Origin: a virus
IMG/VR virus record: IMGVR_UViG_3300025646_000447
Span: 1-21,565 of that record
Strand: one strand, 5' to 3'
Length of the DNA stretch: 21,565 nt
The position numbers were made by a program, and so were the translations under genes. Under the pieces are notes generated by a model, which saw only the letters and a list, made by a program, of their open reading frames with translations, ran no database searches and had not been told where the DNA came from. This document shows positions 8,666-21,142 of the stretch, piece by piece (the stretch's first letter is position 1; each line of letters starts with the position of its first letter).

Positions 8666-8688
8666 TGATTAGCGAGTAGGACTAATCA
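8666..8688 (-). terminator. Hairpin at the end of the fibre gene (possible weak terminator)
   Basis: TGATTAG (8666-8672) and CTAATCA (8682-8688) form a 7-bp A/T-rich stem with a 9-nt loop that includes the stop codon of the fibre gene. On the minus strand it is followed by CCTTCTAATTT, only moderately T-rich. It could be a weak terminator or a 3'-end structure. Confidence 0.4.
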
Positions 8689-9867
8689 GTAACGGATCAT
8701 CAGTTGACCAGTACTGGTGCGATAAACATCGCCAACAGCAAGACCACCAGAGGTGGCAGCAGCGTTATCGGCGTAGACGGCGACGTTAGAGAAGTTAACC
8801 TTCCCATCTGACTTAATCGTCATCCTCGGCGTCGGGCTGCTCGCTCCGTCGGCAGTAGTGGAGAACACTAATTTTGTTGGACCATCATCATTGCCCCAAG
8901 TACCATCAGCGGAGGCCGAAATTGATGCGCCTTCGATAAACTGGTCGCCGTCTGAACCGCTAAACCGAACACTGCCCAGAGTGTCAGTGCTACCTACAAC
9001 AGTATGTGTGCCGACCGTGCCACTATCGGACCTGCAAAGAGACAAATTAGCGCCGGTGGCTGTCCCTGTTGCCCAGCTATTTATTGAAACTTGGGATTCG
9101 TGGGTATTGGTGCTGTGAATCTGCATCAGCGGCTGGGTTGTTGCTGATGTACTTGTCAGATACCCAATAGGCGTGCCAACTAACAGCCTGCCGGAGCTGT
9201 CGATGCGGGCGCGTTCTTGACCTGCAGTCCTAAAAGCTACAAAACCGTTTTGTGAAATTTCTGCGCCGCCTGTAATTTTTCCAAAATAAGCTGCCCCATC
9301 TGTTTCAGATGATGGCACTGTGGCATTAATTACTCGTATAACACCGTTAGCAATATCAAGCTTTTCACTGGGACTCGCAGTGCCAATCCCCACCCGATTT
9401 GTGGAGGCGTCAACGAAGAATAGATTTGCTTGAGTATCGCCCTCAATGCGGAAATCGTAATCCTCGCCTGTTTCGTTAAAAACGACTTCGCTGCTGCCAA
9501 AGTTGACGCGGCTAAGATTACTGCTCACCACCACCGTGCCAGATTGATCGGGCAGCGTGATCATGCGGTCTGCCGTTGGATTTGTTACCGCCAGCGTCGT
9601 TTCAAAACCATCAGCGGTGCTGCCCTCAAAGGTCAGCGTGCCAGTGGTGCCAATCTCCAGATTCCCCAGCACCGTGCCGCCGGTGACGATGGAAGGAAAG
9701 TAGGCGAGGCTTGTCCATGCGGTAGTGCCATCACCGACCTTCAACTTCTTAGTGTCGGTCTCAAGGCCAACCTCAGCCGCCAGTAGCACCGGATCCTCTG
9801 CTGTCCAGTTGGCTGCGGTATCAGCGCGAAGCTGAATCTGAACTTGAACCGTGGTAGGTGTGGTCAC
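8686..9867 (-). CDS. Tail fibre / receptor-binding protein
   Basis: This is a 393-aa protein. Residues ~8-58 (LRADTAANWTAEDPVLLAAE, ETDTKKLKVGDGTTAWTSL) are the short trimerising domain found at the N-terminus of the Bordetella phage Mtd and of many fibres. The middle is built of beta repeats (GNLEIGTTGTLTFEGS, MITLPDQSGTVV, NRVGIGTASPSEKLDI, RARIDSSGRLLVGT) like those of fibres and trimeric adhesins. The C-terminus (AATSGGLAVGDVYRTSTGQL) matches a common fibre-end motif (GGLxxGDxYR). No chaperone or collagen repeats. It should bind the host receptor. Start overlaps the upstream gene by 4 nt. A close relative of its first domain is encoded at 17750-18358. Confidence 0.8.
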   Translation of the reverse strand: MTTPTTVQVQIQLRADTAANWTAEDPVLLAAEVGLETDTKKLKVGDGTTAWTSLAYFPSIVTGGTVLGNLEIGTTGTLTFEGSTADGFETTLAVTNPTADRMITLPDQSGTVVVSSNLSRVNFGSSEVVFNETGEDYDFRIEGDTQANLFFVDASTNRVGIGTASPSEKLDIANGVIRVINATVPSSETDGAAYFGKITGGAEISQNGFVAFRTAGQERARIDSSGRLLVGTPIGYLTSTSATTQPLMQIHSTNTHESQVSINSWATGTATGANLSLCRSDSGTVGTHTVVGSTDTLGSVRFSGSDGDQFIEGASISASADGTWGNDDGPTKLVFSTTADGASSPTPRMTIKSDGKVNFSNVAVYADNAAATSGGLAVGDVYRTSTGQLMIRY

Positions 9868-13309: not shown

Positions 13310-13774
13310 TCACATCCTAATCGGCACGCCAATCAATCGATTGTTGTATTTGCGCGGCGGCACCTGTGCGCCAACTGGCGCCAGCGTAGAGCCCAGCCGT
13401 AGTTCAATCAATGTGAACGATCCGCCCATGCTGATCGCTTCGCCTACATAGGATCCGATCAGTTGTTGCGATGCCTGCGGCGCTGCATTGCTTAACCGCG
13501 TATCAAATTCATATAGTTTCACCTCAACCAGCAAATTAAAGTTTAGTGCATTGCTAAAAGCATTCAGTATGCGCTGTGTTGCTGGCGCCTCAATCGTCAT
13601 GCCTACATCAGTCCCAGGTGTACCGCCGATCAGTCCATTGACTACAAACGGCTGGTAATCCCAATTCGCGCCGTCCCAGTCTACGGTTGTGTTGACGTAA
13701 TAGCCTTGCCATCGTGCATAGGTGGTGTTGCCTTCATAGATCCGCAGATATTGCGCTTGGCCGCGGTTGCTCAT
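13310..13774 (-). CDS. 154-aa tail-tip protein (DUF1833-like position)
   Basis: It starts one base inside the end of the tape-measure gene (TGATG) and runs into the hub gene. The protein is beta-rich: QAQYLRIYEGNTTYARWQGY, VEVKLYEFDTRLSNA, GGSFTLIELRLGS. The helix PATQRILNAFSNAL lies in the middle. The position directly after the tape measure and before the hub is that of the distal-tail / lambda M-L type proteins; ELRLG near the C-terminus fits a DUF1833-like or distal-tail fold, but I cannot confirm a family. Confidence 0.6.
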   Translation of the reverse strand: MSNRGQAQYLRIYEGNTTYARWQGYYVNTTVDWDGANWDYQPFVVNGLIGGTPGTDVGMTIEAPATQRILNAFSNALNFNLLVEVKLYEFDTRLSNAAPQASQQLIGSYVGEAISMGGSFTLIELRLGSTLAPVGAQVPPRKYNNRLIGVPIRM

Positions 13775-15576
13775 CAGATCGCACCCTGGAAGCGACGGCC
13801 CGCAAAGCTGCGGTTGTTGCCCAGCAGATTAGCCGCCAGCGAATTGAGCGAGCGTTCAAGGTCGTCGATGGTCACATAACGCTGGCCGCCTTGCTGCAGC
13901 ACAGGGCCAGTTTTGATCTGAACAGTGGTGTTGCCTTGACTGGCGCTAGCGGCTGCACTGTTAGGGATGACAGAAGCGCCGCGCATACCCATCAGATAGT
14001 TTGCCGATGCCCGTGCCATCTTCGACTCGGGGATGATGTATTCACGACCGGCTTCGCCCACCATGGCGACGGTCGGGCCTTGCACCACTCCGCCCTGAGC
14101 AAACCGCGGCAGGCTAACCTCAGTCGCGGTCGGCAGCGTGGGCAGTTTCAGCGCCGACAGCGCCCGGTTAGCCTGCGCGATCAGCTTGTTAATTCCGCTA
14201 ATGGCGCCATTGATGAACTTCTCAACCATCTTGAGGTAGCTGTTGAAGATCCCGCGAATGAACCGGGCCACTGCATCAAATGGAGATTTCAGAGCATTGG
14301 CCAGACCCTTGAAGGCGTCAACAATGGCCCGCACCACGGCCTTAGCGCCGTTGGTAACAGGTTTGATCACGAAATCGTTGAACTCCTTGCCAATGCGCAC
14401 AAACAGATCACCGATAGCCTTAAAGGCATTAGCGATTTGATCACGGAAGACGTAGATCGCAACGCCAGCGGCCACCAGCAACGCCACAAAGCCCAGCGGC
14501 GGCGTTGAGAACACTGCGAGCATCAGTTTGCCAAGTGCGCTCAGCACAGGGATCAGTCCGCTTTTGATCACGGCAATGACAGGGCCAAACAGCTTGGGCA
14601 GGCCGCCAACTGCAAGCCCCACCGCAGCCAATGCCTTAAGGAAATCTTGCAACGGTTGCGGCAGTTGCTGCATTGCCTTGATCACATGACCGATTAACAC
14701 CAATGCATCGCGCAGGATCGGCGCAAGCTGCTCAGCAAGCTGCTGGATTACTTGCGCCAAGATCTCGGCAAACTGCTTAAACCCGGGATTGTTGGCAATC
14801 TCATTAGCAACCTGCTCAAACAATGCCATCAGCGACTCAAGTGCTGGCATCAGCGCCATCAGAATCTCTAAGCCCATTGTCTGCAGACGTTCGGTCATAT
14901 TCTCAATCCGATCATTGAACACAGCCGCCTTATCAGCAAACTCCTGCGTAAGCGCAGTGCTCATCTCGTTCACAGCTTTGCTTCCGCTATTCAGGAACGG
15001 AATCAGCTCACTGCCAAGCCGCTTACCAAAGATCTCACTGGCCAGCGTTGCCTTCTCAGTGCCATCTTCCATCTGCTGAAAGCTATCCATGATGTCCTTC
15101 ATCACGGCATCGGTAGATCGCACCTTGCCGCTTGCATCAGTGAGCGTGATGCCAAGTTGCGTAAAAGCATCTACAGCCGGTCCTGTGCCGGTCGCAGCGT
15201 CGCTGATGTTCTTGGCAAGCGCAGGGAACGCCTTGCTTAGGCTCTCAATGCTGGTATCGCTCAGCTCTGCAACCTTACGGAAGCGATCTAGCTCAGGTGC
15301 CGCCACGCCAGTCCGCTGCGATAGCTTCGACATTGCATCAGCTGCATCGATCGCATCCTTGCCAAACTTGACTAGGCCAAGCGTTGCGATGATCGGCAGT
15401 AACGTCTTAAACACACCGGCCAAGCCGTTGCCAGCCGTATTCAGCCGCTGCATAGCGGTTGCCGATCTGTCGCCAGCGCCAGCAACACCTTGAAGCCCAC
15501 GCGTCAGCCCTTGGATCTGCTGCTCACCATTAACCTTTGCATTGATCACCAGGGCTGTGGTCATGTCCAGCGCCAT
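13774..15576 (-). CDS. Tape measure protein
   Basis: This 600-aa protein follows the tail-assembly chaperones, as expected. The N-terminal ~90 residues include KVNGEQQIQGLTRGLQG and a hydrophobic segment (GVFKTLLPIIATLGLVKFGK), the usual TP901/PhageMin-like opening, followed by helices (DAADAMSKLSQRTGVAAPEL). Hydrophobic stretches near residues 320-380 (GFVALLVAAGVAIYVF) could insert in the host membrane. The C-terminus is GVVQGPTVAMVGEAGREYII, the motif common at tape-measure ends, then a Ser/Ala/Gln-rich tail. At about 0.15 nm per residue a tail of roughly 90 nm would be expected, a rule-of-thumb estimate. Confidence 0.9.
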   Translation of the reverse strand: MALDMTTALVINAKVNGEQQIQGLTRGLQGVAGAGDRSATAMQRLNTAGNGLAGVFKTLLPIIATLGLVKFGKDAIDAADAMSKLSQRTGVAAPELDRFRKVAELSDTSIESLSKAFPALAKNISDAATGTGPAVDAFTQLGITLTDASGKVRSTDAVMKDIMDSFQQMEDGTEKATLASEIFGKRLGSELIPFLNSGSKAVNEMSTALTQEFADKAAVFNDRIENMTERLQTMGLEILMALMPALESLMALFEQVANEIANNPGFKQFAEILAQVIQQLAEQLAPILRDALVLIGHVIKAMQQLPQPLQDFLKALAAVGLAVGGLPKLFGPVIAVIKSGLIPVLSALGKLMLAVFSTPPLGFVALLVAAGVAIYVFRDQIANAFKAIGDLFVRIGKEFNDFVIKPVTNGAKAVVRAIVDAFKGLANALKSPFDAVARFIRGIFNSYLKMVEKFINGAISGINKLIAQANRALSALKLPTLPTATEVSLPRFAQGGVVQGPTVAMVGEAGREYIIPESKMARASANYLMGMRGASVIPNSAAASASQGNTTVQIKTGPVLQQGGQRYVTIDDLERSLNSLAANLLGNNRSFAGRRFQGAI

Positions 15577-15579
15577 GGC

Positions 15580-15906
15580 TCAGTCCTTCCGCTGACGGTG
15601 CATTGCTTCGATCACTGTAGCTTCGATGATCTGCAGATCACTCAGCAGATCAGCCTGATCCTCCACGCGCTGTATCTCGAACATCCAACGCACAGCGCTG
15701 TAGTCCAAGCCGATCAGCGCACCGCCTGATACGCGCCACTGCGTCTGGACACGCAGGAACATATCCACCGCAGGCCATGCCTCCGGCAGCACCTCATAGT
15801 CGTCGCCGCCATCCGGCTCCGGCAGATCAATGCCAAACAGCGCAGCATCGTCTCCGGTTTCGTCAATCGTTGCGCCGCCCGCCCAATACTCAGCGGCGCC
15901 AATCAG
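15580..15906 (-). CDS. Tail assembly chaperone T-part (DUF1799-like), made by -1 frameshift from the G gene
   Basis: This frame is open from within the G gene and begins at CTG 15906 after a -1 slip at the heptamer AAAAAAC. The T-part has 108 aa: LIGAAEYWAGGATIDETGDD, AALFGIDLPEPDGGDDYEVL and PEAWPAVDMFLRVQTQWRVS, GLDYSAV, then a C-terminal helix. The WPAVxxFL..xTQWRV...GLDY pattern is DUF1799, the tail-chaperone T domain. A GTG at 15792 could start a 70-aa protein alone, but it discards conserved upstream residues. Fused to G, the product is 234 aa, close to lambda gpGT in layout. It should recruit the tape measure during tail assembly. Confidence 0.8.
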   Translation of the reverse strand: MIGAAEYWAGGATIDETGDDAALFGIDLPEPDGGDDYEVLPEAWPAVDMFLRVQTQWRVSGGALIGLDYSAVRWMFEIQRVEDQADLLSDLQIIEATVIEAMHRQRKD

Positions 15907-15927
15907 TTTTTTCGTTTCTGATCCACC
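15872..15927 (-). promoter_or_regulatory. Programmed -1 ribosomal frameshift signal (G to G-T)
   Basis: On the minus strand the G gene ends CGA AAA AAC TGA, so the slippery heptamer A_AAA_AAC (15912-15906) touches the stop codon. After six spacer bases, GCGCCGC (15899-15893) pairs perfectly with GCGGCGC (15878-15872) around a 14-nt loop. A GGTGG (15927-15923) lies ten bases upstream of the heptamer, like the stimulatory Shine-Dalgarno of E. coli dnaX. The -1 frame continues into the T-part with no stop. Confidence 0.85.
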
Positions 15928-16337: not shown

Positions 16338-17270
16338 TCAGGTGTAGACCAGGCTCACCTCATCGTTGCCGCTGCTGCCGGGCACCGCCACATATGGGAG
16401 CGTCAGCATTTGGATGCCATCCAGATCGCTGTAGCTCGGGTTGCCGATGTCGCAGTTGGAAGCGTTGAAAGTGATGATGTTGCCAGCGGTTTGGCCGTGC
16501 TGGAACGTGATCGCACCAGTGGCGTCGGTGTTGGCGATCGTGAAGAAGTCCTTAGCCTCCATGGTCGGCGCCTCGATGATCGCCTCGCCAGCAGGTGCCC
16601 GGTTGGTGATGTTCACCGACTTATCGCAGCCCACCAGCTCGCGGTAGTTGACCTCGTTTGCCACGTCGAAGCTGAAGCTGGACAGGCAACCGCTGTAGGA
16701 GAAGATCGAGAAACTGGTGGTATTGCCAGCCTTGAAGATTACCGGCGTCTCTTGGTTGCTGTAGGTGGTGCTAGGCGCTGCGGTGTCAGTAGGTGCGTTG
16801 TAGATGCCGGTCATCGTGAAGCTAATGATCGGGATCTGATTCACCTCAGCGGTCAGGCTCCATGTGCCGCGGCAGCCGGTCAGCTTGTGCAGCACGCCGT
16901 CGATGTTGACGTAGATGGTACAGCTGCCGATAGATGCACTGATGGGGGTGTAGGTGACGCTGGTGTCATCTACGACCGTCTCGATGAAGCCGCAGGACTT
17001 CAGCAGCGAGCCATAGCGGGGGGCAATGCCAGCGGTGCCACTACCGGCAAACTCAACCTCGAAGCTCACCTCCACGCGGGTGTTGCTCAGCAGTTGCTCG
17101 CTGTTGCCCAGATAGGGGCGGATCAGCTCGCGGCTCACAGTTTCGGCTTGGATCGGCGTGATCTCCAGATTCCGCACCAACAGGGCGTCAGTGCCGCCCG
17201 GTGTTGAATCCGTGCCGTAGGTGGATTCCGCCTTAACAAGGATGAGGCGCTTACGGGTGAGAAGTGCCAT
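16338..17270 (-). CDS. Major tail tube protein
   Basis: This 310-aa protein lies between the tail terminator and the G chaperone, the position of lambda V. The N-terminus (LTRKRLILVKAESTYGTDST, PGGTDALLVRNLEITPIQAE) is typical of tail-tube proteins of this type, followed by a beta-sandwich (VEVSFEVEFAGSG, IYVNIDGVLHKLTGCRGTWS, IISFTMTGIY). It has six Cys (in KSCGF, GSCTI, TGCRG, SGCLS, VGCDK, SNCDI), unusual for a cytoplasmically assembled protein. The C-terminal half (AITFQHGQTAGNIITFNASN, DLDGIQMLTLPYVAVPGS) completes the domain. Hundreds of copies make the tube, so strong expression is expected; hairpins lie on both sides of the gene. Confidence 0.85.
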   Translation of the reverse strand: MALLTRKRLILVKAESTYGTDSTPGGTDALLVRNLEITPIQAETVSRELIRPYLGNSEQLLSNTRVEVSFEVEFAGSGTAGIAPRYGSLLKSCGFIETVVDDTSVTYTPISASIGSCTIYVNIDGVLHKLTGCRGTWSLTAEVNQIPIISFTMTGIYNAPTDTAAPSTTYSNQETPVIFKAGNTTSFSIFSYSGCLSSFSFDVANEVNYRELVGCDKSVNITNRAPAGEAIIEAPTMEAKDFFTIANTDATGAITFQHGQTAGNIITFNASNCDIGNPSYSDLDGIQMLTLPYVAVPGSSGNDEVSLVYT

Positions 17271-17327: not shown

Positions 17328-17753
17328 TCAATCAGTCGTCAGATCAGCCACAAGCGTGCGATAACGCACCAAGAAATCGCAGCTAATCACGCCAGCAGGT
17401 TGATCAGCGTCGATCAGCTCAAAGTTGACGGATTGTGGCTGCACATCAATCGCATAGCCGCCGAGGGTTAAATCGGCCATCACCTTGGCGTGCAGTGATT
17501 CCACGGTCGCATCAGCCAGCTGATCAGGTACGTCACCGCGCACCACAACAGCAATCCGCACCGTGAGGCTCCAATCCAACCGCGGCAGCGCGGTGTTTTG
17601 CTCTGCCGTGTCGCTGATTGGCTCGATCACGATGGCCGGGCTCTCCTGCCTGGCCAGTGCCGTCACCCTGCTGCGATAGATGCGCGTGCCGACGCCAGTG
17701 GTGCCAGCCAACGCTGTTGTGATGGCACGCAAGATGCGCTCACGCCGCGTCAT
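17328..17753 (-). CDS. Tail terminator-like protein
   Basis: This 141-aa protein has a helical start (RRERILRAITTALAGTTG), RIYRSRVTALARQESPAIVI, EPISDTAEQ, and a beta-rich middle (LDWSLTVRIAVVVRGD) followed by a helix (ADATVESLHAKVMAD) and more strands. The layout (short helix, R.YRSRV..L.R.E.PAIVIEP, strand-helix-strand) and the position between the head-completion genes and the tube gene are those of the lambda U/Z tail-terminator group. It should cap the tube and join it to the head. Coupled by a 4-nt overlap to the upstream gene. Confidence 0.7.
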   Translation of the reverse strand: MTRRERILRAITTALAGTTGVGTRIYRSRVTALARQESPAIVIEPISDTAEQNTALPRLDWSLTVRIAVVVRGDVPDQLADATVESLHAKVMADLTLGGYAIDVQPQSVNFELIDADQPAGVISCDFLVRYRTLVADLTTD

Positions 17754-18358
17754 GCCTTCACCTCAATCGCACTTATCCGCCCGCGTTGGAACTGGATTGT
17801 TGTGGTATCGCTGATGTTGGCAACGTACATGGCCACCTCATCGCCATCAGCCAACTCAACCATCCAAAAGCAAAACAGCTTTGCAATTTGGCCAGTCGAG
17901 CCACTAAAGGCGCGGCATTCCGATTGATCAATGCCAACGCCGTTCTTGACAAGCTTGATGCCGAGCGTGTGGTTGTTGCCGGCGTAGGCATCCATGCTGG
18001 CCTGCACCATGAACAGCTTGGTTGCGCCACTGTCATTGGCCAGCCCAAACGTGTCAGACGCGCCGAGCGTGACCTGATAGTCGGTGGCACTATCAAACGT
18101 GGCGGTTAACCCAGTGCTCTGATAAGTGCCGGCCTCTGCGATCGCAATCGTGCCGCTGGTGGTCTTGCTGGCTTGGCCACGCGCCAGCACGCCCTCGATG
18201 TAGTAGCTCAGGCCCGTCCAAGCCGTAGACCCATCGCCCACCTTGTAGCGGCGCGTATCGGTCTCGATGCCCATCTCGCCGGCCAGCAGCACCGGATTCT
18301 CGGCAGTCCAGTTAGCAGCTGTGTCACGCCGCAGCCTTAGCCGTGCTGTGCTGCTCAT
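17750..18358 (-). CDS. Adhesin-domain protein (Mtd-type N-terminus) in the head-tail connector cluster
   Basis: This 202-aa protein shares its first ~50 residues with the tail fibre (LRRDTAANWTAENPVLLAGE, ETDTRRYKVGDGSTAWTGL; about 33 of 45 positions identical by hand). The remaining ~150 residues are a beta-rich domain (TSGTIAIAEAGTYQSTGLTA, FDSATDYQVTLGASDTF, HTLGIKLVKNGVGIDQSECR, FWMVELADGDEVAMYV, TIQFQRGRISAIEV) resembling a jelly-roll of the C1q/TNF kind. It lies between head-completion and tail-terminator genes, with 4-nt overlaps on both sides. It may be a head or neck fibre rather than a tail fibre; function inferred. Confidence 0.65.
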   Translation of the reverse strand: MSSTARLRLRRDTAANWTAENPVLLAGEMGIETDTRRYKVGDGSTAWTGLSYYIEGVLARGQASKTTSGTIAIAEAGTYQSTGLTATFDSATDYQVTLGASDTFGLANDSGATKLFMVQASMDAYAGNNHTLGIKLVKNGVGIDQSECRAFSGSTGQIAKLFCFWMVELADGDEVAMYVANISDTTTIQFQRGRISAIEVKA

Positions 18359-19003: not shown

Positions 19004-21142
19004 TCAGGTGGTGACGTCAAGGATGGCTGCGAAGCTCTCAGCGTGACGCACAGCCACGTCATAGGTGACGATGGCGCGGACGCTGGTGAGAGCCTTGCTG
19101 AAATCGTCGGAGTCTTCACCCACAACGATCTCAAGGCCGTTACCCCAGAAGCCCACCATGGCCTGAGAGAAGTCGCCCATCAGCACTGCAGAGCAGACGC
19201 CGGAGCTAGTTCCCTTGGTCAGGTTGCTGGGCACTTGGTTGGTGACATACAGCGGATAGCCGTTCACCGAGGCAGGAGTGCCGCCGCGGCCGATGGCGTT
19301 CAGCTGATCATTCACCAGATAGGCGCCGTCAGTGGTAGTGGAACCACCAGCGCGCAGCTTCTTCAGCTCAGCCAGCACCTTGGCGTTGGTGACGTAGCCG
19401 ATAGCGTCGCGGTTCACCGCGCCGTTATCAATCAGCACCTGCTCCTCAAGATCCACCAGAGCGTTAACCGTGATGGCGCCGCCGTTGGTACCCATAGCCA
19501 CCGAGCCGATGCCGGAGGTGTTCAGGATGCCGGTGGGCTGGCCGGAAGAACCGGAGCCGTTGAGGATGCCGAGATCAATGCCGAGGTTAATGCCATCGGT
19601 GAGATCGCGGCGCACCAGATCCTCGATGCCAGGGGTGGCCTGCAGCAGGGTCTGACGGCTGTACTTGGACAGAGCTGCCAGATTCTTGGGCTGGAGAGTC
19701 ACCTGATCGAAGGTGCTCTCACTCTGGGTGATCGCGGTGGTCTCAGTGCTCAGGTAGTAGGTGGAAGCCACACCGGAGCGACGGGGGATCGCCACATCAC
19801 CGACCAGGCCGGTCATGGTGCGGATGCCCAAGTTGAGCATGACCGACTGGTTGCGCAGAGCCTCGATGAACTCATCGGCCATCAGATCGGTGGCAACCAG
19901 GTTGCCGCCGGTGGTGGCGCCAGAGGTGACGTAGGTGGCGCGCTTAGCCAGTGCCGAGAAAGGCACGAAGAAACCACGCTTGCCGGTCTGAGCGAAACCA
20001 GAAGCGCGTTGCACTTCCTGGCTGATCTCCTTTACCAGGCCAGCCTCGCGGGAGCTCCAATCACCGCTCAGAGCGGCGCGGATGCCCTCGCTGATGCTGT
20101 AGTTAGCAGCATCGCGCTGATCCATTTCGACGGGCTTAACAGCTTCGACGGGCTTAGCGCCGAGCTTGTCGAGCACCGCGGCGCGGGCTTCATCAATCGA
20201 GCGGCCGGACTCGATCATTTGACGGCCAAGATCGCCCATGTTGTGCTTGTCGCACAGGGCGGAAATACCAGCGATGCGGGAGCGCTCAGCCTCAACGGCT
20301 TCGGCCCGCACCACTGCCAGATCAGGGGTGGTGTTTTCCATTTCAGGAATGGGATCGGGGGTAGGTGCAGCCGGAGCTGCGTTGGAGTCAGTCTCTAGTG
20401 AGCGGCCAACCCCAACGGAGGGATCAGCCGGTACAGAGACCACGGATACCTCGTAAGGCGTCCAAGCAGTAGCAACAAAGTCGCCACCACCTCGCTCCTC
20501 CATTTTGTCGATGGAGTAGCCAAAGGAGACATTTCGCAGAACGCCATCCTTCACATCGCTCAAAACTTCCTGAGCGAATGGGTTGCGGCTGAACCGCACA
20601 CGCACATAGCCGCGGCGTTTTTGGCCGTCGATATAAGCGCGCTCAACCACACCGATCACGCGGTCAGGGTTGTGGTTGAACAGCAGTGGCGCCGAATCAT
20701 TCAAGCGGGCGAGATCAGCAGCGCTGGCCTCATGGCTCAGGATTTCATTCCCGAAATAGCGCTGCACCGGATACTCAGAGCTGAAAGGAAACTCAAAGGT
20801 CCGATCCTCCACCTCGGCAAAGCTGGTCAGTTCTGCCCGCTGGTACTTGCCCTCAAGGTCGCGCACGTTGCGCTCCTCTCCGATTGCTTCCTCGAACTCC
20901 ATTGGTTCAATCTCCCGCTCGTTTAACCATTCAAGCGCCTCCGCGGGCGTAAATAGCGCAGCATCAAACCGGATTGATTGCAGCTCAGACTCGCCTTCGC
21001 TGATTCCGTAGATAAAGTCCACACCATCGCCGCCTTCATCCTCAGCGCGGCGAAACTCCTCGAAACCAGCAGGATCCTGCAAGCGCGCCGCGTGTTCGTT
21101 TGGGTAAGGGCGCTTTTCTGTCACAGCTCTAGCGCTAATCAC
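19004..21142 (-). CDS. Fusion of N-terminal domain, S78 prohead protease and HK97-fold major capsid protein
   Basis: This 712-aa protein starts at GTG 21142, overlapping the portal stop by 4 nt. Residues ~5-90 (YPNEHAARLQDPAGFEEFRR, GGDGVDFIYGISEGESELQS, IRFD) are a domain I know at the start of some phage protease/XkdF-like proteins. Residues ~100-250 are the S78 protease: FNHNPDRVIG with His157 and LRNVSFGYS with Ser206 as the expected catalytic pair, then TPYEVSVVSVPADP. Residues ~270-390 are a helical Glu/Ala-rich scaffold-like (delta) region. From ~390 (GFFVPFSALAKRATYV) comes the capsid, with NLVATDLMADEFIEALRNQS, YYLSTETTAITQSE, DGINLGIDLGILNGSGSS, GQPTGIL and FSQAMVGFWGNGLEIVVGED. Maturation should cut between protease and capsid. 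Such fusions are known but less common than separate genes. Confidence 0.9.
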   Translation of the reverse strand: MISARAVTEKRPYPNEHAARLQDPAGFEEFRRAEDEGGDGVDFIYGISEGESELQSIRFDAALFTPAEALEWLNEREIEPMEFEEAIGEERNVRDLEGKYQRAELTSFAEVEDRTFEFPFSSEYPVQRYFGNEILSHEASAADLARLNDSAPLLFNHNPDRVIGVVERAYIDGQKRRGYVRVRFSRNPFAQEVLSDVKDGVLRNVSFGYSIDKMEERGGGDFVATAWTPYEVSVVSVPADPSVGVGRSLETDSNAAPAAPTPDPIPEMENTTPDLAVVRAEAVEAERSRIAGISALCDKHNMGDLGRQMIESGRSIDEARAAVLDKLGAKPVEAVKPVEMDQRDAANYSISEGIRAALSGDWSSREAGLVKEISQEVQRASGFAQTGKRGFFVPFSALAKRATYVTSGATTGGNLVATDLMADEFIEALRNQSVMLNLGIRTMTGLVGDVAIPRRSGVASTYYLSTETTAITQSESTFDQVTLQPKNLAALSKYSRQTLLQATPGIEDLVRRDLTDGINLGIDLGILNGSGSSGQPTGILNTSGIGSVAMGTNGGAITVNALVDLEEQVLIDNGAVNRDAIGYVTNAKVLAELKKLRAGGSTTTDGAYLVNDQLNAIGRGGTPASVNGYPLYVTNQVPSNLTKGTSSGVCSAVLMGDFSQAMVGFWGNGLEIVVGEDSDDFSKALTSVRAIVTYDVAVRHAESFAAILDVTT

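Follow-up and report, generated by a model that had tools for sequence, protein, structure and literature searches.

The window analysed here is a 21.6-kb IMG/VR virus record (21,565 nucleotides), whose minus strand carries a siphophage structural gene cluster. Profile searches give the order of this cluster as capsid, connectors, tail terminator, tube, G, T, tape measure and further tail genes. Among named relatives, the Synechococcus phages S-CBS1 (62–66% identity), S-CBS3 and S-LBS1 come closest, and across these three phages protein identity to the window ranges from 34 to 66%. The genes G and T overlap and sit between the tube gene and the gene of the tape measure protein, which is the expected client of the G/T chaperones; T lies in the −1 frame relative to G (Table 1). 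A search of Rfam returned no match anywhere in the window. Elsewhere in the record, a single 712-aa reading frame at 19004–21142 (minus strand) holds both a prohead protease (PF04586) and a major capsid (PF05065) domain. Two further minus-strand proteins, encoded at 17750–18358 and 8686–9867, have similar N-terminal segments (LRRDTAANWTAENPVLLAGEMGIETD and LRADTAANWTAEDPVLLAAEVGLETD), and the former matches Mtd_N, a tail-fibre N-terminal domain.

Table 1. Features of the G/T locus and its flanking genes (positions in the window).
Feature	Positions	Strand	Basis or remark
Tail tube protein	16338..17270	−	PF18906, 8.6e-27; directly upstream of G
G, tail assembly chaperone, 126 aa	15903..16283	−	Phage_TAC_4; TTG start
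GGTGG, proposed internal Shine-Dalgarno	15923..15927	−	unsupported as functional
Slippery heptamer A_AAA_AAC	15906..15912	−	in phase, 0-frame codons AAA AAC; last two codons of G
G stop codon TGA	15903..15905	−	directly 3′ of heptamer; overlaps first −1-frame codons CTG-ATT
T extension, DUF1799	15580..15906	−	−1 frame, 108 codons + stop; with G forms GT, 234 aa
Stem (8 bp), 5′ arm	15892..15899	−	predicted fold, −18.5 kcal/mol; covariation in 16 sequences
Stem (8 bp), 3′ arm	15872..15879	−	predicted fold and covariation
Lower extension (5 bp), 5′ side	15900..15904	−	predicted MFE, weaker; pairs with 15869–15865 past a 2-nt bulge
Lower extension (5 bp), 3′ side	15865..15869	−	predicted MFE
Tape measure protein	13774..15576	−	phrog_3981, 3e-71; directly downstream of T

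The G and T reading frames

Over its full length, G matches PF08748 (Phage_TAC_4; E 2e-4, 21.8 bits, gathering cut-off 21.1), and it matches phrog_569 at 1.6e-20. In the alignment its TTG start lines up with ATG or GTG starts in relatives, and its 3′ end reads …CGA AAA AAC TGA. The gap between the tube gene and G is occupied by a terminator-like hairpin (16308–16285, minus strand; GGGCTGAGCG-TTAT-CGTTCAGCCC, T-rich thereafter), which directly adjoins the TTG start and thus leaves no space for a Shine-Dalgarno sequence at G. This hairpin is limited to one subclade, comprising the window and L005, L007, L011, L013 and L019, all with TTG starts, and was not found in the other relatives compared; in the records of HK639, KP36 and phiPMW, terminators are annotated close to the corresponding position. 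The S-LBS1 record labels its G gene (L054:2627–3007) as an ABC-transporter ATPase (FepC); as the product can be aligned with the G chaperone, this name looks wrong.

Starting at the CTG at 15906, the −1 frame stays open until a stop that ends at 15580. The first-pass annotation had described it as running for 108 codons into a DUF1799-like domain, and this description was borne out: the frame 15909–15580 matches PF08809 (DUF1799) at 3.6e-13 (50 bits, gathering cut-off 26) and phrog_680 at 1.8e-27. The predicted fold of T has a mean pLDDT of 73 and is best from residue 41 onward. Against a viral library, Foldseek returned weak, consistent matches of this model to phage "tape measure chaperone" models (best E 3.5e-3), some of which are of fused length (Solomon, 210 aa). 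A Foldseek search of the T model against the PDB gave nothing, and a PDB sequence search with G and T as queries gave nothing convincing.

Selection on the beginning of T was estimated from 13 representatives. Over T codons 2–38, dN/dS is 0.30 in the −1 frame; the other two frames give 1.50 and 1.32, and each of them contains several stops. These codons precede the first ATG, GTG or TTG of the window's T frame, a GTG at codon 40 (15792), and their conservation as protein is indirect evidence that ribosomes translate T in the −1 frame.

Heptamer, adjacent stop codon and RNA stem

All the elements that the first-pass annotation had described, namely the heptamer with its phase, the stop codon, the spacing, the GGTGG and the stem, were found on the minus strand where it put them. 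AAAAAAC occurs once in the window, against a chance expectation of about one; its in-phase position over the two final codons of G is, however, not what chance alone would give. With the codon usage of the genome, Arg-Lys-Asn would be spelled A_AAA_AAC by chance in about 1.6% of cases. Conservation of the heptamer, proposed earlier as a check, proved complete in a wider survey that included proteobacterial genomes: all 80 distinct loci carry it in phase (56 A_AAA_AAC, 23 G_GGA_AAC and 1 G_GGA_AAT) and 76 have a stop codon directly abutting it, counts that do not represent independent events as the loci are related. L002–L047, S-CBS1, S-CBS3, S-LBS1 and HK578 all retain the heptamer together with its adjoining stop. 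Since the cyanophage-like relatives with G_GGA_AAC swap Lys for Gly (KRKN to KRGN), the constraint falls on the slippery sequence and not on the peptide.

Twelve more phages, drawn mostly from other genera, were compared, and both the heptamer and the adjacent stop are present in nine of them. The exceptions without a canonical heptamer are distant family members, the Klebsiella phages VLCpiS8a and KP36 and the Enterobacter phage ST22 (L151, L154 and L157). Their TAC_4/DUF1799 pairs show CAAAAG at the heptamer position, and in VLCpiS8a and ST22 a possible start for T lies 22 nt upstream of the stop of G.

The downstream stem had been described as a perfect 7-bp GC helix. This helix is present, with GCGCCGC (15899–15893) starting six bases 3′ of the heptamer and pairing with GCGGCGC (15878–15872), and the proposed check by RNA folding does predict it; the structure is nevertheless longer than described, comprising 8 bp and a 5-bp lower extension. 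In an alignment of 16 sequences, 90% of the cells of the 14-pair structure are paired. Six pairs covary, with eight cells changed on both sides, a level reached by none of 500 shuffles. Two-sided changes are seen in two pairs of the lower extension. The consensus register is the best one, slid registers faring much worse. In S-LBS1 the stem is rebuilt from other bases in an unchanged register, while S-CBS3 fits the consensus register poorly and folds a stem of its own from the same start. The stability of the window stem is only moderately above that of shuffles (z −1.6), compared with about −2 to −4.6 in relatives. The downstream stem-loop of a dnaX-type signal is thus found here by both structure and covariation, and the stem can be regarded as a putative stimulator.

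The same cannot be said of the GGTGG ten bases upstream of the heptamer, which had been proposed as an internal Shine-Dalgarno sequence and as the third element of a dnaX-like signal. The stretch encodes Leu-Val-Asp, relatives show CTGGTTGAG or GACGGACGAG in its place, and the energy of its duplex with the anti-Shine-Dalgarno sequence is no better than that of shuffles. GGTGG therefore looks like a coincidence, and the signal would consist of two elements, not of three as in dnaX.

The first-pass annotation further expected the adjacent stop to add to slippage. No support for this was found here, and work on the HIV-1 heptamer points in the opposite direction: with UGA as the following codon, shifting in mammalian cells fell by about 70%, and raised RF2 abolished it in bacteria, in agreement with competition by the release factor (PMC4373837). 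In E. coli, moreover, A_AAA_AAC is far less shifty than A_AAA_AAG (PMC5009743). Given a less shifty heptamer and a stop codon of the kind that lowered shifting elsewhere, the frameshift rate in the window may be low. By analogy, the effect of the adjacent stop is probably to restrain slippage, not to promote it; the near invariance of this codon makes a limiting or tuning role the better guess, but still a guess. A broader proposal, which we put forward tentatively and consider rather doubtful, is that throughout the TAC_4/DUF1799 family the stop that directly follows an AAC-ending heptamer belongs to the signal as one of its conserved elements, so that the contest between release factor and slippage at the A site, and not slipperiness alone, would set the G:GT ratio. 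The near-invariant stop after such a heptamer across this family is the only new point of the present analysis, and a mildly new one.

Probable frameshifting and the alternative explanations

The observed sequence of the site, its phase and conservation, the selection in the −1 frame and the covariation of the stem are best accounted for by programmed −1 ribosomal frameshifting, which would yield two tail-assembly chaperones from one message. We assign this reading, judged from sequence comparison, a probability of roughly 0.94; it agrees with the earlier proposal that a G-type chaperone is fused in this way to a DUF1799 T domain. Most ribosomes would read through A_AAA_AAC in frame and end at the adjacent TGA, releasing G. 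A minority, paused by the stem 6 nt downstream, would slip by −1 on AAA-AAC and go on along CTG-ATT-GGC-GCC…, producing GT with the junction …KRKN-LIGAAEYW…. By analogy with lambda, G would coat the tape measure protein and GT would additionally recruit tube subunits. That slippage takes place, how often it does so and what G and GT do are inferred.

T could instead be a separate gene, translated as a free protein after re-initiation beyond the G stop, either at the GTG at 15792 or at a rare ATT or CTG start located at that stop. It is annotated as a separate gene in S-CBS1, S-CBS3, S-LBS1 and HK578, and the possible start that precedes the G stop by 22 nt in the T frame of two distant phages lacking the heptamer is in line with this idea. 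A conserved start at 15792 had been named by the first-pass annotation as something to look for in relatives; at codon 40, however, just 24 of 40 relatives have GTG (GTA, GTC, CTG or ATC elsewhere), and no column across these 40 holds a conserved T start codon. Possible T starts do occur in some relatives from about codon 9–30, at varying positions, and at the G stop itself CTG and ATT give way to CTA, ACC, ACA and GAG. Because codons 2–38, upstream of the GTG, are selected as protein and no start codon is conserved, T is unlikely to arise from a start of its own. Re-initiation would also leave both the invariant heptamer and the covarying stem unexplained, and we consider it very improbable.

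Still less probable is slippage of RNA polymerase on the run of six A residues, by which mRNAs with a base gained or lost would encode the fusion. The site does offer such a run, but six A residues are short for transcriptional slippage, many relatives carry GGGAAAC, where no base is repeated more than four times in a row, and neither the codon phase nor the downstream stem would be needed. The least credible explanation takes the T frame for a remnant in decay and the heptamer for a product of chance. While the expectation of about one AAAAAAC in the window would allow for a chance occurrence, T is under purifying selection and matches DUF1799 and tape measure chaperone models, the in-phase heptamer is universal in the survey, the stem covaries, and broken T frames or scrambled heptamers were not found among close relatives.

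If frameshifting is accepted, it corrects how a common tail-chaperone pair of cyanophage-like siphophages is annotated. In addition, the relatives provide a large set of natural frameshift sites, nearly invariant in heptamer (A_AAA_AAC or G_GGA_AAC) and adjacent stop but variable in stem sequence, a set that should be useful for testing the competition between termination and slippage in bacteria.

Comparison with known systems

Frameshifting in the tail chaperones of long-tailed phages, lambda G/GT included, is established according to Xu, Hendrix and Duda (2004) as cited in PMC5009743, and the window provides a real, well-conserved and otherwise ordinary example of this long-known device. 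In lambda the G:GT ratio is near 30:1 (PMC5009743) and a low GT:G ratio is needed, while 6–7% shifting has been measured in an HK97-like cluster (PMC3711429). The statement of the first-pass annotation that lambda uses the same device at the same place holds in part. Lambda and the window share the order tube–G–T–tape measure, the −1 direction, an X_XXY_YYZ heptamer where G ends, and a T that exists only as an extension of G. The proteins, in contrast, belong to different Pfam families, and homology of the window G and T to lambda G and T (PF06894, PF06223) is undetectable, with an hhalign probability below 1% for both. The lambda heptamer, G_GGA_AAG in our control reading, lies five codons before the stop, whereas A_AAA_AAC in the window is followed immediately by the stop and then by a covarying stem.

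The heptamers of the survey are also known from Caulobacter phages, for which tail-chaperone sites AAAAAAC and GGGAAAC have been reported (PMC3556154). The phiCbK group frameshifts a chaperone encoded before the tape measure gene at AAAAAAC, as proposed for the window, and Colossus does so at GGGAAAC (PMC3556154). The chaperone models of Colossus and CcrSC are weak fold matches to the window T model; the phiCbK group and Colossus differ from the window in their distant sequence and their Caulobacter hosts.

The Drexlerviridae and HK639/HK578-type pairs likewise combine TAC_4 with DUF1799, and in some of their records there are fused-length models under the name tape measure chaperone (Solomon, 210 aa). 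Their T proteins are about 30–40% identical to that of the window and, although some members are without a canonical heptamer, most have the same heptamer and adjacent stop. For S-CBS1, S-CBS3 and S-LBS1, a search of the available literature found no paper naming S-CBS1 and S-CBS3 together with frameshifting. The records of all three phages give two separate genes with T truncated and the frameshift unannotated, just as the first-pass annotation had anticipated that gene calling would miss the fusion. All three carry the same heptamer and stop as the window, with a stem predicted downstream.
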